Shown piece after piece: positions 48,162-54,069 of a stretch of DNA of 56,389 bases. Location: NCBI GenBank assembly GCA_022614915.1, contig JAKEHV010000346.1, positions 1 to 56,389 of the forward strand, written 5' to 3'. Position numbers and translations under genes: made by a program. Below the pieces are notes generated by a model that saw only the letters and a list, made by a program, of their open reading frames with translations, searched no databases and was not told the DNA's origin. Every line of letters starts with the position of its first letter. Position 1 is the first letter of the stretch. Source of the stretch: Gemmataceae bacterium. GTDB lineage: Bacteria > Planctomycetota > Planctomycetia > Gemmatales > Gemmataceae.

Positions 48162-48635
48162 ATGCCGCAATGTCCCCAATGCGCCAAGCCGCTGCGCGAA
48201 GTCACGCGCCGCTGCCCGTCGTGCCAGGCCGACCTCGCGCTGCTCGTCGATTACGTCAGTCATTTGAACGGCGGCCTGGAGCGCGCCGACAACTTGCTCA
48301 AAGCGGGCGAACTGGGCCCAGCGGTATGGGCCTATCTGGAAGTGCTCGAGGTCGATCCCGACAACGCCCCGGCGCGCCGGCAGGTGGGCCAGGTCGTCAC
48401 CGCGGTCCGGCAATTCGACCAGGTCAACGAGGGCCGGCGCTGGCTAAGTCGCATTCGCAGCGAGGCAGGCGACAACCTCTTACAGCGCTGGCGCAATTAC
48501 ATCTTGATCGCCGCCGGAGTCTTCTTGGCGTTTTCGATCGGCTTCTGGCTCGGCGGGCTGTCCTTCGAAGAATCAAACGGCGCCCAGCCTGATCCGCCCG
48601 TGCCGCAGCACAAGGATACGCTGTCGGGGAAGTAG
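48162..48635 (+). CDS. zinc-ribbon, TPR-like, membrane-anchored small protein
   Basis: A 157-residue protein with GAGGGAT before the ATG. Residues 3-21 form a zinc ribbon (CPQCAKPLREVTRRCPSC), 35-80 resemble a TPR unit (ADNLLKAGELGPAVWAYLEVLEVDPDN), and 110-130 are a membrane segment (YILIAAGVFLAFSIGFWLGG). The short tail is outside. Function unknown. It is convergent with the SPFH operon. Confidence 0.8.
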   Translation: MPQCPQCAKPLREVTRRCPSCQADLALLVDYVSHLNGGLERADNLLKAGELGPAVWAYLEVLEVDPDNAPARRQVGQVVTAVRQFDQVNEGRRWLSRIRSEAGDNLLQRWRNYILIAAGVFLAFSIGFWLGGLSFEESNGAQPDPPVPQHKDTLSGK

Positions 48636-48642
48636 AGTGCAA

Positions 48643-49590
48643 TTACTTTTTCTTCGGCATCAATGGGAACTGCGTAATGTTGAGCCCTTCGCCAGTGAGG
48701 AAATTGTCCAGCACGTCGATCCGTCCGGTCTCGCGCATGCGATTGTAGAGTCGCGTCATCTCATCTTGCCAGAGAGAGTTCAAGTAATTGGGGTCCTGGC
48801 GCACCAGCTTGCGGTACTGCTCCCACCGGCGAAGAAAGGTCTCCGCGTCGGCCTGGGCTTGCAGGCGTTGCTCGCGGACATAGGCGGCGGCGAGGCTCTT
48901 AATGCGAAACACTTCTCCGGCGGCTTCGCTCAACTTGCGGTTGGCTTCCTGCTCGGCCTGGTTTTTTTGGGTGCTGGTGGTCGTTTCCGCCTGAGCCAAG
49001 CGATCGAAGGCCTCCTTCACTTCTTCCGGAGGATACAAACGATTGACGCTGGCTTGCTCGATGCGGACGCCAAGGTCGTACGGCGCGATGCGGCTCTGCA
49101 CGGCTTGCACCAGATAGCCCGGCAGGACAGCCTTGCCGCGCCGCAGCGTTTCGAACACGTCGCGGCCGGCGATCCACTCCGCCAACGCGGTTTCCGCCGC
49201 CCGCGCCACCAGGGCGTCAACGCGATCCTTGTGCAGGACGAACTTCACTACCTCGTCCTCGACGACAGCGTAATTCACTTCCGCCTGGATGTTGACCAGA
49301 TTGTGATCGCCGGTCAGCAATTGACCGGGCGGCGTCAGCCGGTCTTCCTCAGTGGCCGGCGCCGCATCGATGCCGACGGCCACGCGCCGTACCTGCCCGA
49401 CCGCCACGCGCTCGACGCGGTCCCAGCCCCAGGGCAGGCCGATGAAAAGGCCTGGCCCCGGCTTGTAGTCCAGTATCCGGCCGAAACGGCGCACGACGGC
49501 CCGCTCGCCCGGCTCGACTTGCGTCACTGCCGACAGGGCCGTCCAACCAAGAAACAACACGAGCAGCGCCGCGAGCACGATTCGCTTCAT
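48643..49590 (-). CDS. SPFH/band 7 membrane protein, HflK/HflC-like (third gene)
   Basis: A 315-residue SPFH protein. An N-terminal membrane segment is followed by EPGERAVVRRFGRILDYKPGPGLFIGLPWGWD, the HflK-type prohibitin start, then the coiled-coil-rich part (EEVKEAFDRLAQAETTTSTQKNQAEQEANRKLSEAAGEV, in pieces). Its start overlaps the stop of the preceding gene by ATGA. SPFH proteins form large membrane rings; HflK/HflC control FtsH. Here the partner operon is the metal ATPase fusion, so a ring around that pump is an inference. Confidence 0.88.
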   Translation of the reverse strand: MKRIVLAALLVLFLGWTALSAVTQVEPGERAVVRRFGRILDYKPGPGLFIGLPWGWDRVERVAVGQVRRVAVGIDAAPATEEDRLTPPGQLLTGDHNLVNIQAEVNYAVVEDEVVKFVLHKDRVDALVARAAETALAEWIAGRDVFETLRRGKAVLPGYLVQAVQSRIAPYDLGVRIEQASVNRLYPPEEVKEAFDRLAQAETTTSTQKNQAEQEANRKLSEAAGEVFRIKSLAAAYVREQRLQAQADAETFLRRWEQYRKLVRQDPNYLNSLWQDEMTRLYNRMRETGRIDVLDNFLTGEGLNITQFPLMPKKK

Positions 49591-50591
49591 GGCATGCCTC
49601 CTTGCCCATTTTTCTTGTCGTCCTTGGGGAGAGAGGGGTTAGAAGTGAGGGGACGCGGCGGCATGAACAAGAGATCAAACAAGGGGCGATGGGTGGACAA
49701 CAGCAATACGGTCTTGTTGTCCGCGAGAATCGATTGCAGTTTCTCCATTTGCTTCAAGAAGGCGTAAAACTCCGGATCCTTCTGATGGGCCTGATTGCGG
49801 ATGAGCATGGCCTCCGTATCCGCCTGGCCTTTGAGTTTTTCCTCGTCGAAGCGGGCTCTGGCCAACAGCTCGCGCACCTTTTCTTCGGCGGCGCTTTCGA
49901 TGTTGCGGGCCTTGAGTTCACCTTCGCTCAGGATTTCGGTCACTTTTTTCTTGCGCTCGCTTCGGATGCGGTCGAAGATTGCCGAACGGACCTCGCCTGG
50001 ATGGCTGAAACGGCGCAGGCGAATGTCCACAAGATCGACGCCGTAGTCCCTGAGCAACGTTTCCCGAAGCTGCGTCATGAGCTCGAACTGCAGCTCTTGC
50101 ATTTTTTCATCGACGTGCGTCCGGCCTGGTTTTTCTCCGGCGTCCGTGCTAACCAGGTCGTGCATGCTCCGCTGCGTGATGGCTGCGCCAAGCTGGCTGT
50201 TGATGCGCGGACCCAGAATGTCGCGGGCACGCTCCGGCGTGCCCAGCCGGCGCACAAACTGATCGACGGCGTCGCTGCCGGCGATTTTCCAGCATACGTA
50301 GGCCTCAATGGACAAGGTCTTGTCGATCGTCTTGCCTTCCGGGTCGTGCGTGAGGACTTCGGTCGCGGGCAAGTCGAAGAATTGCAACCGGCGATCGAGG
50401 CGCTGCACGGAGCTGAAGGGCCAGGGCCAGCCCAGGTGCAACCCCGCGCCGTCCGCGCCGCCGTCGAAAGTCGCGACGTGCTTGCCCAGTATCGTCACAT
50501 AGCCATACTCCGCGGCGTCCACGGTGTAGAGCGACAGCCGCACGAGAAGGAGGAAGAGAGCGACCAATAGGATTTTCGAAAGCAAGCGCAT
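49587..50591 (-). CDS. SPFH/band 7 membrane protein, HflC-like (second gene)
   Basis: A 334-residue SPFH protein with GAGG before the ATG at 50591. The membrane segment and YTVDAAEYGYVTILGKHVAT start, ILGPRINSQLGAAITQRSMHDL and DYGVDLVDIRLRRFSHPGEVRSAIFDRI are typical of HflC. The C-terminal 20 residues (around 313-323) are encoded by a family D repeat. It follows the ATPase fusion by 20 bases and overlaps the next SPFH gene. Confidence 0.88.
   Translation of the reverse strand: MRLLSKILLVALFLLLVRLSLYTVDAAEYGYVTILGKHVATFDGGADGAGLHLGWPWPFSSVQRLDRRLQFFDLPATEVLTHDPEGKTIDKTLSIEAYVCWKIAGSDAVDQFVRRLGTPERARDILGPRINSQLGAAITQRSMHDLVSTDAGEKPGRTHVDEKMQELQFELMTQLRETLLRDYGVDLVDIRLRRFSHPGEVRSAIFDRIRSERKKKVTEILSEGELKARNIESAAEEKVRELLARARFDEEKLKGQADTEAMLIRNQAHQKDPEFYAFLKQMEKLQSILADNKTVLLLSTHRPLFDLLFMPPRPLTSNPSLPKDDKKNGQGGMP
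49623..49652. repeat. dispersed repeat family D in the HflC-like gene
   Basis: CTTGGGGAGAGAGGGGTTAG plus AAGTGAGGGG, a diverged copy of the family seen at 43317-43365. It is read in frame near the C-terminus. Confidence 0.65.
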
Positions 50592-50611
50592 GACAAAACC
50601 TCACTCGTTTT

Positions 50612-53600
50612 TCAGGGCTCATCCGGTCTGGGCGGAAACGGCGCGCGTAACGGACGGTCCTGCGGCAGCAACACCGGCACGGGCACGCGAAACTGGTCCG
50701 GGTCGACCAGAAATAGATTCCGCTGGCCTTTGATCTTGTCCGTGTCGATCAGAATCATCTCCCGTCCCAAAAGCGCCTTACCAAGCACGTCCCAGAAGTA
50801 GCGCGTGTCGCTTAGCGCCGCCTGCAAGGCCAAGGTCTGCGTGCGCCTCTTTTGGTAATACTTCTGTGCTTCCGGCAATTCCAATCCGGCAAGCGCCGTT
50901 TCAGCCAAGAGCCAAAGTTCTTGCTGCAATGTCAAGTCCTTGCGCCCCTTGTCGCGCGCCACAAAGCGGGCCAAGTCGCCTTGGGCTTGCAGCGTCTTCT
51001 CCGTCTTGCCGGCCCGCGCTTGTGCTACGATTTTCACACTGTCCGATTTAGCCGTGTTTATTTTGCGCGAACTATTCTCCTCTGCCTCGTTGATTCTCCG
51101 GTCTCGATCTTCCATCGCCCGGGCGACTTTGTAATAGTCTGCGACCACGTCCGCAGGCGGGTGCAAGTCCAGCAAGGACACGCCTTCAATGTCGATGCCG
51201 AGCCCGCCGTATTCCTGGACACGTTCCTCGAGGCGTGCCAAAACTTCTTGTTGAAACTGTCCTCGATAAACCGTCAACAAATCATGAAACGGCCGGCCGG
51301 CGACCATGCCGCGCAGCACAGCTTCCGCGGTCGCGCGCAGCAGCTCTTCGCCGTTTTGCACCTCGAACAGAAAAACATACGGCTGCGACACCTTATAGCG
51401 CACGACTGCCTGCACATCGATCAGGTTCTTGTCCCCAGTGATCATGAGCGCCTCTTCCCCGAGGCGGTTGTCCCGATGCGGGGCGGTCCACGTCAGCGAT
51501 GCCTTCTGAACGGAGACAAGCGCTTGGCGAAAACCAACTTCAACGCTGCGGACGCGCTGCGAAACACGCGTCGCCTCCTCAATCGGCCACGGCCAGCGCA
51601 GGTGCCAGCCCGGCCCCAAGTCTGCGACGTGCCGGCCGAAGCGGCGCACGACGGCGACTTCGTCCGGCGCAACAATGCGCAGGCCCGTCGCAACGTAGAG
51701 AAGCAACAGCACACCGGCGCAGGGGAGCAGCAAACGCCGCCAGCGGTGGCCCAGCCAATGCACGAACTCATCGACGTTGAGGTTTTTCTCAAGCCAAACG
51801 TCAGATTGCCGGAGCCAGCCCTTCCAGCGCACAACGAACCGGCTCGACGCCGTGCGCTCGAACCACAACAGCCGCATTGAGTTCAGCAAGACCGCCAGCG
51901 AGCCGATCTGATGGTAGATGACGGCGACGATCGGCGACTCGTCGTACAAGTGAGCGGGAGCGAAGATCGGCCAAAGCCAAGCGGTCAGGACGATGCCGAT
52001 GGCGTTGACGGCAAAGGCGAAAATGATGATGTTCTGGTGGATGATGCGGACGGTTTCACGAGACAGCCGGACCAAGAGCGGCAAGGGCCGCAAGGGATCG
52101 CCCATGAGGACAACGTCGCCCGCCTCGGCGGCGATGTCGGCGCCCGTGCCGCCGATCGCCAGCCCGACATCCGCTCGCGCCAGCGCCGGCGCGTCGTTGA
52201 TGCCGTCCCCCACCATGGCGACCGACTTGTCGCTTCGCGCGTCGCGCCCCTTTCTTAGCTTTTCAACGAAAGCCGCCTTTTGCTCGGGCAGCAGTTCCGC
52301 ATGTATCTCGGAAAACTGCAAGTCGGCCGCCAACGCCTGCGCCGCAGCCGGTCGATCCCCCGTCAAGAGCACGATCGGTTCGACGCCCAACCCGCGCAAT
52401 TCTTCGAGCACGCCTGCCGCTTCCGGCCGCACGCGGTCGCGTGCGCCGATCGCGCCCAGCACGATGCCGCCGCGCGCGACGAACAACCCGGTTTGGCCGC
52501 GTTTGTCCAGCTCTTGCAAAAGCTGTTGCGCTTCCGGTGTCAGCACAATTCTCTGCTCTTCCAGCAAGCGGCGCGTACCGACCAGCAGCCTGCCTGAAGA
52601 AAGCGTAACAGAGATGCCCGCGCCGGGGTGTGCTTGAAAATCGCTGGCCTCTTCCAACGCCAGGCCGCGTTCCTTGGCCGCCTGCACGATGAGCCGCCCG
52701 ATGGGGTGCTCGCTTTGCTGCTCGGCAGAAGCCGCCAAACGCAATAGCTCGGCGGGATGCACGTCGCCCAGCGGCAGAATCTCGCCCAATTCCAGCTTGC
52801 CTTCGGTGATGGTCCCGGTCTTGTCAAAGGCGATTGCCTTGACGCCCGCGAGCCGTTCCAAGGCGCTGCCGCCTTTGAGCAAGACGCCGGTGCCCGCAAG
52901 CCGGCCCATGGCGGCAATGACGGCGGCCGGCGTGGCGAGAATGAGCGCGCACGGGCACGCCACCACCAGCACGGACAGCGTCGGATACATGCTCAGCGTC
53001 AGGGCGGTGCGAAAGCCCAAGCGCGGCGCGTCGGCCAGCCTGAACCAGCCCGCGCCGTAGTGCAGCATGCCGGCAAGAAACGTGAGCGCCGCCAGTCCCA
53101 GCACCACCGGCAGAAACAGCCGGGCCATGCGGTCCGCCGTCCGCTCGATGTTTCCTTTGTCCTTGAGCGCTTTGGCCGTCATCTCGATGACCCGGCCGGC
53201 CACGGTTTGCTCCGCCACCTGGCGCGCTTCGATTGTCAGCGCGCCGAATTGGTTCACCGAGCCGGCTAATACCTCGTCGCCCGGGCCTTTGTCCTGCGGC
53301 AAACTCTCGCCCGTTAGCGCGCTCGTGTCCACCGCGGACCGGCCCTCGAGCACCACGCCGTCCACCGGGATTTTGCCCCCCGGCTTGACGAGGACCTTGT
53401 CGCCGGCCGCAAGTTGGCTGGTCAGCACGCGCGTTTCCTGGCCATTCTCGATGCGCCAACAGCGGATCGGAAACACCTCGGCGATTTTGGCGACAGCGTT
53501 TTGCGTGCGCGCGAAAGTGAACGCCTCAAGGCACTCACCGATCATGCCGATGAGCACAACCTCGGCGGCCACCAAGGGCTCGTTGATCAGGATGGCGGCG

Positions 53601-53896
53601 ATGCAGGCCAACGCCAGCGCGAGATCGGCGCCGATGCGGCCCTCGAGGAGACTTTGCAACGAGGTATAGAGAATCCGCGCCCCGCCCAGAACCGCGGCAA
53701 TGAGTGCAAATCGAAAGCGATCGCCTTCGCCAAAGCCTCGTGGCCATGACGCGACAGAGGAGATGCCCATCCAGCCGGCGATGGTGGGCGCTAGATCGAG
53801 CGCGATGAGCGCGGCCAACAGGCCGGTCATGAGATAAAGCGGCAGCCGGCTTTCCTGGGCGAAGGCGGAATCGCTGTGGGAAATCTCACGGTGCAT
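50612..53896 (-). CDS. P1B-type metal ATPase fused to an HflK-like SPFH domain
   Basis: A 1094-residue protein from ATG 53896. Residues 1-720 are a complete heavy-metal P-type ATPase: TGES block, membrane metal site Cys-Pro-Cys at 314-316, phosphorylation motif DKTGT with Asp358, SEHPIGRLI and GDGINDAP near 563. No N-terminal metal-binding CxxC domain exists, and the last membrane helices carry HQIGSLAVLLNSMRL, unlike the usual Zn or Cu patterns. A further membrane segment near 720-738 is followed by an SPFH domain (APDEVAVVRRFGRHVADLGPGW) to the end. The two next genes are separate SPFH proteins. Metal and direction are unknown. Confidence 0.9.
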   Translation of the reverse strand: MHREISHSDSAFAQESRLPLYLMTGLLAALIALDLAPTIAGWMGISSVASWPRGFGEGDRFRFALIAAVLGGARILYTSLQSLLEGRIGADLALALACIAAILINEPLVAAEVVLIGMIGECLEAFTFARTQNAVAKIAEVFPIRCWRIENGQETRVLTSQLAAGDKVLVKPGGKIPVDGVVLEGRSAVDTSALTGESLPQDKGPGDEVLAGSVNQFGALTIEARQVAEQTVAGRVIEMTAKALKDKGNIERTADRMARLFLPVVLGLAALTFLAGMLHYGAGWFRLADAPRLGFRTALTLSMYPTLSVLVVACPCALILATPAAVIAAMGRLAGTGVLLKGGSALERLAGVKAIAFDKTGTITEGKLELGEILPLGDVHPAELLRLAASAEQQSEHPIGRLIVQAAKERGLALEEASDFQAHPGAGISVTLSSGRLLVGTRRLLEEQRIVLTPEAQQLLQELDKRGQTGLFVARGGIVLGAIGARDRVRPEAAGVLEELRGLGVEPIVLLTGDRPAAAQALAADLQFSEIHAELLPEQKAAFVEKLRKGRDARSDKSVAMVGDGINDAPALARADVGLAIGGTGADIAAEAGDVVLMGDPLRPLPLLVRLSRETVRIIHQNIIIFAFAVNAIGIVLTAWLWPIFAPAHLYDESPIVAVIYHQIGSLAVLLNSMRLLWFERTASSRFVVRWKGWLRQSDVWLEKNLNVDEFVHWLGHRWRRLLLPCAGVLLLLYVATGLRIVAPDEVAVVRRFGRHVADLGPGWHLRWPWPIEEATRVSQRVRSVEVGFRQALVSVQKASLTWTAPHRDNRLGEEALMITGDKNLIDVQAVVRYKVSQPYVFLFEVQNGEELLRATAEAVLRGMVAGRPFHDLLTVYRGQFQQEVLARLEERVQEYGGLGIDIEGVSLLDLHPPADVVADYYKVARAMEDRDRRINEAEENSSRKINTAKSDSVKIVAQARAGKTEKTLQAQGDLARFVARDKGRKDLTLQQELWLLAETALAGLELPEAQKYYQKRRTQTLALQAALSDTRYFWDVLGKALLGREMILIDTDKIKGQRNLFLVDPDQFRVPVPVLLPQDRPLRAPFPPRPDEP

Positions 53897-54069
53897 GCAC
53901 GCCGACGGGGTGGGAAACAAGGAAGCGCCAGGACGCCCCCCATCCTACGCCGAAATGCGCGGCGTTACAAGGGCCGGTGGAATCGTTCGCGACCGCTTTT
54001 GGCATGTGCATTGCAACGACATGTGAGCGACGTTCATTCAAAGTGACTCAATACAACGGGAGGAACATC

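Follow-up and report, generated by a model that had tools for sequence, protein, structure and literature searches.

A P1B-type metal ATPase fused to an HflK-like SPFH domain in Gemmataceae, and SPFH gene trios that carry other metal transporters

Introduction

Among solved structures, the closest relatives of the SPFH proteins analysed here are HflK and HflC, which together build a cage around FtsH that may be closed or open (PMC13220708). Apart from FtsH, little is established about the contents of SPFH walls in bacteria. An association of SPFH proteins with a metal pump has been described in Pseudomonas aeruginosa, where the hmtA cluster PA2434-PA2439 encodes three HflK/HflC-like proteins along with an importer of the P-type ATPase family, is zinc-regulated and is induced by Zn depletion (PMC4542158). 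Zur binds the PA2439 promoter (PMC8531726), and the three SPFH genes of the cluster are PaFlo5-7 (PMC13086221). ATPases go unmentioned in a 2009 survey of prokaryotic SPFH proteins, and in the open-access literature we found no description of P-type ATPase-, CDF- or permease-SPFH fusions or of transporter exchange, an absence that is weak evidence by itself.

Here we describe an operon of three genes on the reverse strand of the window, a stretch of 56,389 nucleotides from a Gemmataceae bacterium, in which a P1B-type metal ATPase and an SPFH domain form one chain and two further SPFH genes follow. The component families are all known; it is their combination that is undescribed in the literature found.

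Results

The first gene (50612..53896, reverse strand) encodes 1094 residues from an ATG start (MHRE...) and comprises a P1B-type metal ATPase, a ninth transmembrane (TM) helix and an HflK-like SPFH domain (SPFH1). An upstream TTG of the same frame gives 1102 open codons (53920..50612, reverse strand), as against 1094 from the ATG at 53896. A first-pass annotation of this DNA had read a full P-type ATPase and an HflK-like SPFH domain in one chain, and this was confirmed by Pfam and NCBIfam in one open frame. The domain search that it had recommended returned all three expected families on the single chain, E1-E2_ATPase at residues 143-334 (1.5e-47), Hydrolase at 352-576 (3.2e-31) and Band_7 at 741-940 (1.8e-25), the last lying in the C-terminal half. 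Membership of the P1B type is indicated by a score of 551.7 bits with the NCBIfam heavy-metal P-type ATPase model TIGR01525 (cut-off 346.25), and the hallmarks DKTGT, TGE, HP loop and GDGxNDxP are present together with both ATPase domains. In a fold search the ATPase matched the solved structures of CopA (4bbj) and ZntA (4umw) with E near 1e-45, and ZntA 4umv as well.

The actuator region assigned by Pfam (residues 143-334; 52895..53470, reverse strand) holds the TGES motif, whose E197 is invariant among 25 aligned fusions, as is the CPC motif of M4 (C314-P315-C316; 52949..52957, reverse strand). Pfam and the alignment place DKTGT with Asp358, the SEHP loop and GDGIND (563-568) in the P and N domains (residues 352-576; 52169..52843, reverse strand), and in the 25 fusions CPC, DKTGT, the S-x-H loop and GDGxND are kept, with CPC, D358 and GDGIND invariant or nearly so. 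The CPC, Asp358 and GDGINDAP named earlier are thereby borne out. The HQIGS that had also been picked out in the transport segment is the M6 motif at residues 662-666 (51899..51913, reverse strand), and the pattern H-[QE]-x-x-S occurs in 25/25 fusions. The usual N-terminal metal-binding domain had been reported as missing, and a Pfam search of the 1094-residue chain indeed found no HMA domain. Judged on its sequence, the fused ATPase should be active.

The ninth TM helix, seen in the hydropathy profile at residues ~719-742 (51671..51742, reverse strand) and modelled as a helix over 719-737, joins the cytoplasmic C-terminal end of the ATPase to the SPFH domain, and both linker and helix are conserved across the fusion relatives. 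The SPFH/Band_7 domain itself (residues 741-940; 51077..51676, reverse strand) is HflK-like by Pfam and NCBIfam and matches HflK in the PDB (7vhq, 2.1e-19). The AlphaFold2 model of the single fusion chain (pLDDT 79.8, pTM 0.58) consists of an ATPase fold, the helix, an SPFH fold and, past the latter, long C-terminal helices (residues ~915-1042; 50771..51154, reverse strand) as found in HflK/C wall subunits. Given eight TM helices in the ATPase plus the ninth, the SPFH domain is predicted to lie outside the cytoplasm, as in HflK.

The fusion stop codon is followed after 20 bases by the start of SPFH2 (334 aa; 49587..50591, reverse strand), which overlaps SPFH3 (315 aa; 48643..49590, reverse strand) by 4 bases; coordinates and NCBIfam assignments agree with the earlier reading of two HflC/HflK-like genes with 20-base and overlapping spacing. 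In addition to their Pfam and NCBIfam assignments, SPFH2 matches HflC in profile comparison (7vhp, 5e-58) and SPFH3 matches HflK (7vhq, 3e-46). All three chains pass PF01145 (Band_7; 90.5, 68.8 and 69.8 bits, gathering score 23.6), and the best NCBIfam family is hflK for SPFH1 and SPFH3 and hflC for SPFH2. All three nevertheless fall below the equivalog cut-offs, SPFH1 (139.6 bits) and SPFH3 (121.3 bits) for HflK (TIGR01933, 159.4) and SPFH2 (125.0 bits) for HflC (TIGR01932, 134.4).

The CopA, ZntA and CoaT types of P1B ATPase are told apart by CPC or SPC in M4 and by patterns in M5 and M6. The fusion departs from P1B-1 (CopA; CPC, YN in M5, MSxSS in M6) in having HQIGS in M6 and in scoring 380.7 with TIGR01511, whose cut-off is 397. 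It departs from P1B-2 (ZntA; CPC, Lys in M5, Asp in M6) in having Asn in M5 and His in M6, and from P1B-4 (CoaT/PfeT; SPC in M4, HEGxT in M6), with which it has the M6 His alone in common, in combining CPC with HQIGS. By these sequence signatures the fused ATPase conforms to none of the tested P1B classes. Among the ordinary P1B pumps of planctomycetes in this alignment the CopA type (MSxSS) predominates, and HmtA-type ATPases have CPC with HNLST in M6. Since no known class matches exactly, cargo and direction are less certain.

A first single-sequence scan of genome contigs gave no match. When the final ATPase helix and the SPFH region served as query across the class, most strongly matching genomes had the fusion in a single frame of ~1000-1200 residues, and in the table of this search ~80/94 other genomes of the window's own family, Gemmataceae, had a match at E < 1e-50. 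A phylum-wide search turned up another four genomes, in which the fusion aligned along most of the chain with identities of 40-43%. All told, the fusion frame runs without interruption in well over 100 genomes of Planctomycetia, and it also occurs in Brocadiia and on a single contig of Lentisphaerae (L161). Because the same architecture recurs unbroken in many independent assemblies, single-contig genomes included, the fusion is not a product of chance or sequencing error. The first-pass annotation was prepared to give up its claim if the fusion were absent from relatives and due to a missing stop codon; such a loss, or a misassembly of two neighbouring genes, has nothing in its favour except that the window's genome is a draft in 601 contigs. 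With the junction open in more than 100 genomes and the linker and ninth helix conserved, this reading is ruled out.

The neighbourhood survey proposed earlier for Planctomycetota showed the fusion recurring mostly as fusion-SPFH2-SPFH3. This order, on one strand, was present in 14 of 20 fetched class relatives and also in one further genome (G377) and on the Brocadiia contig, where identities with the window were 30-42%. The fusion stood alone in eight genomes (the remaining six of the class relatives, G373 and G216); when their Band_7 genes were placed in a tree, SPFH2 and SPFH3 orthologues were found elsewhere in 7/8, usually paired, and SPFH3 in the eighth. On this evidence the trio is retained by the genome even when its genes are unlinked. 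The Planctomycetia showed no extra operon gene conserved class-wide, and the P1B-fusion operons no conserved metallochaperone or folding factor. The one exception lies at the level of a family: ExbB/ExbD genes adjoin the operon in 5/5 Isosphaeraceae loci.

The trio is not confined to P1B ATPases. On a plasmid of Aquibium oceanicum the first of three SPFH genes encodes a CDF cation-efflux domain fused to an SPFH domain (Cation_efflux 4.5e-25, Band_7 2.9e-20); the other plasmid matches examined were hflK-hflC pairs. A scan of the genome collection with an SPFH2 alignment yielded 79 loci, ~35 of which, from about ten phyla, have CDF-SPFH1, SPFH2 and SPFH3 in that order, with hosts among Rhizobiales, Anaerolineae, Spirochaetes, Nitrospiraceae, NC10/Rokubacteria, Clostridia, Synergistaceae, Lentisphaerae, Planctomycetota and others. 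In 4 loci (L145-L147, L149) an SO_0444-family Cu/Zn efflux permease occupies the same N-terminal place; three of these were scanned with the NCBIfam model and scored 344, 324 and 311 bits (cut-off 300), and the sequence motif CSCSVLP is shared by L147. What these systems have in common is a metal transporter fused to the N-terminal side of SPFH1 and the presence of SPFH2 and SPFH3, either within the operon or elsewhere in the genome; we propose them as a class, the metal-transporter-SPFH trio. A parvulin-type isomerase accompanies 36/40 CDF loci and 0/32 P1B-fusion loci, and the ATPases adjoining CDF systems are mostly of the ZntA type, P1B-2 (M5 Lys, M6 Asp). A search with SPFH2 over Pseudomonadota gave mainly matches resembling canonical HflC.

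In the smaller of two trees the SPFH1 chains cluster across the three systems, as do the SPFH2 chains and the SPFH3 chains (SH-aLRT 77, 93 and 92), all apart from HflK/HflC, the cross-system grouping of SPFH1 having moderate support only. The larger tree recovered the SPFH3 group (91), left SPFH1 as a grade and did not separate SPFH2 from HflC. The simplest reading of the sequence comparisons is one ancestral trio, in which the SPFH chains are constant and the metal transporter is exchanged.

Pseudomonas genomes were reached with OprI as a genus marker together with Band_7 spacing, and five clusters were examined. All five consist of a long multi-TM SPFH1, SPFH2 and SPFH3, followed by a P1B ATPase; a His-rich N-terminus was seen on SPFH2 in the two clusters fully examined and on the ATPase in one cluster. 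We identify them as the hmtA cluster by gene order and composition, not by accession. From gene context the fused ATPase might have been an HmtA orthologue, an expectation rejected by the ATPase tree, in which the HmtA-like rows form a clade of their own with L029 (99) and the fused ATPases fall outside it. The SPFH chains of Pseudomonas diverge so strongly from the others that the larger tree does not place them reliably.

Discussion

We propose that the fusion, SPFH2 and SPFH3 form one membrane assembly, in which a transition-metal transporter sits in an extracytoplasmic HflK/C-type heteromeric SPFH wall, and we consider the chances of this reading about even. The data themselves establish the fusion and its conservation, the retained trio, the intact CPC and catalytic motifs, and the replacement of the transporter module by CDF and SO_0444 permeases; heteromer, wall, lumen role, topology, cargo and direction are inferred, the topology from the helix count and the wall by analogy with the solved HflK/C cages. 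SPFH1, SPFH2 and SPFH3 would build the wall against the inner membrane, on its extracytoplasmic side, and the P1B ATPase, tied to SPFH1 via the ninth TM helix, would be held within it or at its rim. The pump would use ATP for the transport of a transition metal, with Zn2+ or a comparable divalent ion as the most likely cargo and outward as the most likely direction. The metal would be released into or beside the space bounded by the wall, where it might be handed to extracytoplasmic metalloproteins or kept from free diffusion.

The first-pass annotation had suggested an SPFH ring or microdomain built around the transporter. The association is well supported by the conserved fusion, the co-retained trio and the two other transporters at the same place, while the formation of a ring or microdomain is something that we infer. 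It had also held the cargo to be unpredictable, which goes too far. Three observations suggest zinc or a different divalent metal of the first row, probably Zn2+: the combination of CPC with a histidine in M6, the families of the partner transporters, and the Zn-type ATPases that neighbour CDF systems. Outward transport is favoured, since P1B pumps are in general regarded as exporters (PMC10654040) and both substitute transporters, CDF and SO_0444, belong to families named for efflux. Several points weigh against the proposed assembly. If each copy of SPFH1 brings a bulky ATPase, a cage walled all round may not be easy to build for steric reasons, the P1B-fusion operons are without parvulin, the ExbB/ExbD genes next to the Isosphaeraceae operon hint at uptake and not export, and neither SPFH1 nor SPFH2 came out as a clean group in the larger tree.

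Scaffolding is a known role of SPFH proteins, and fusion with three unrelated transporters requires only co-localisation. The trio could accordingly do no more than cluster or stabilise an ordinary exporter in a membrane microdomain, with no enclosed space and no metal hand-over, a reading that suits the lack of a conserved metallochaperone or folding factor in the P1B-fusion operons. We think it unlikely, though a serious contender, since two further, separately conserved SPFH paralogues and the HflK/HflC/HflK pattern suggest a defined heteromer, and the parvulin of the CDF loci suggests work in the extracytoplasmic space. The Isosphaeraceae ExbB/ExbD neighbours and the analogy with hmtA keep alive another model, in which the ATPase would take up periplasmic Zn2+ or Cu, the activity reported for HmtA, and the SPFH wall would gather or shield metal in the periplasm for this uptake. 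In its favour, the Pseudomonas P1B ATPase follows three SPFH genes in the reported HmtA arrangement, PA2434-PA2439 are induced under Zn depletion from a Zur-bound promoter (PMC4542158, PMC8531726), and CPC and the M6 histidine are common to HmtA-like and fused ATPases. The position of the fused ATPases outside the HmtA clade, the unreliable placement of the Pseudomonas SPFH chains and the exporter character of both the substitute transporters and P1B pumps in general make import by the fusion improbable in our view.

That the nearest solved relatives are HflK and HflC could also mean that the SPFH chains bring in FtsH and, in the manner of HflK/HflC, control how the pump or other membrane proteins are turned over, and the first-pass annotation had pointed to the regulation of FtsH by known SPFH pairs. 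An ftsH-like frame was found in only 1/72 loci, all three chains score below the HflK and HflC equivalog cut-offs, and in the smaller tree they cluster apart from HflK/HflC; the appeal to FtsH is not supported by gene context, and we regard an FtsH modulator as very improbable.

The proposed assembly has a possible wider meaning. The parvulin of the CDF systems suggests that there the space may serve folding or metal loading of exported proteins. The three fusion types may constitute one undescribed cross-phylum class of extracytoplasmic metal-handling chambers, with a constant SPFH1-2-3 wall charged with metal by an exchangeable module (P1B, CDF or SO_0444) fused to the first subunit, and with a CDF version that, together with a parvulin foldase, loads or folds exported metalloproteins; we offer this tentatively and put its chances somewhat below even. 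A transporter covalently joined to the wall, and the recurrence of such a joint with three metal transporters that are unrelated to one another, bear on the question of what such walls enclose. The covalently tagged cargo gives structural studies a handle and makes a link of SPFH assemblies with metal supply testable, and chambers of this kind would also explain the three SPFH genes of the Pseudomonas hmtA cluster, so far listed in papers as FtsH modulators under zinc starvation.

Compared with known systems, the fused ATPase resembles CopA (P1B-1), ZntA (P1B-2) and CoaT-like P1B-4 pumps in its complete core, with CPC in M4 (SPC in CoaT), DKTGT, the HP loop and GDGxND, and differs from them in an M5 Asn and M6 H[QE]xxS that fit none of these classes, in the missing N-terminal metal-binding domain and in the C-terminal SPFH domain. 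The SO_0444 and CDF transporters are, like the P1B module, fused to the same SPFH1 with SPFH2 and SPFH3 after it, whereas known members of these families stand alone, and they are not ATPases. The hmtA cluster likewise combines one P1B ATPase with three SPFH proteins, a multi-TM SPFH1, an HflC-like chain and a third, but has a separate ATPase gene from another clade, divergent SPFH chains and Zur regulation. The cluster is thus an analogue with equally many parts but no fusion, and because its ATPase belongs to another clade and the divergence of its SPFH chains prevents their placement, the importer function is not carried over to the fusion. HflK and HflC, finally, have in common with the fusion trio the SPFH fold, the single TM helix before it, the HflK-like and HflC-like partners and the matches to solved cages, and are set apart from it as two SPFH chains that cage FtsH, with no transporter fused, against three chains, all below the equivalog cut-offs and with an ftsH-like frame in only 1/72 loci, of which the first carries a metal pump.

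A CDF cation-efflux domain was found fused to SPFH1, the first protein of the SPFH trio, at L078 (6296-9941), one of the loci compared with the window, and also at L105-L143 and L154. These loci are spread over about ten phyla, and the fusion is accompanied by SPFH2, SPFH3 and a parvulin isomerase of 560-790 aa, often with a Zn-type P1B ATPase close by. The CDF-SPFH protein of one member of the Spirochaetes (L137, 210-2630) carries an extra N-terminal membrane region of about 285 residues. An SO_0444-family Cu/Zn efflux permease is fused to SPFH1 in Phycisphaerae and other Planctomycetota (L145, 5457-7571; L146, 979-3057; L147, 2-1885; L149, 1-1953), and SPFH2 and SPFH3 follow the permease-SPFH1 gene.

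Most of the P1B ATPase-SPFH1 fusions in the window and its relatives start with MHRE (window 53885-53896), and their conserved N-terminal histidine sits just ahead of the first TM helix. The plus strand of the window (48162-48635) encodes a small protein that has a zinc ribbon and a TPR-like stretch. Its gene and SPFH3 are convergent, with 7 bases between their ends, and it showed no conservation among the relatives examined. In all five Isosphaeraceae loci (L040, L100, L101, L102, L103) the fusion operon is flanked, on the same strand, by an ExbB-ExbD-ExbD set and by a protein of about 320 aa that gave no Pfam matches.

A P1B ATPase with an SPFH gene directly upstream (L029, 68-3372), from a planctomycete of another class, groups with the HmtA-like ATPases. 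SPFH1 of the Pseudomonas hmtA-type cluster (L214, 3483-5423; L217, 3138-5117) has a multi-TM N-terminal region of about 330 residues, without Pfam matches, and SPFH2 of this cluster opens with a histidine run. On a Vibrio parahaemolyticus plasmid (L083, 5821-9208) the genes hflK-hflC-nhaA overlap, and NhaA is a further transporter linked to HflK/C through an operon.
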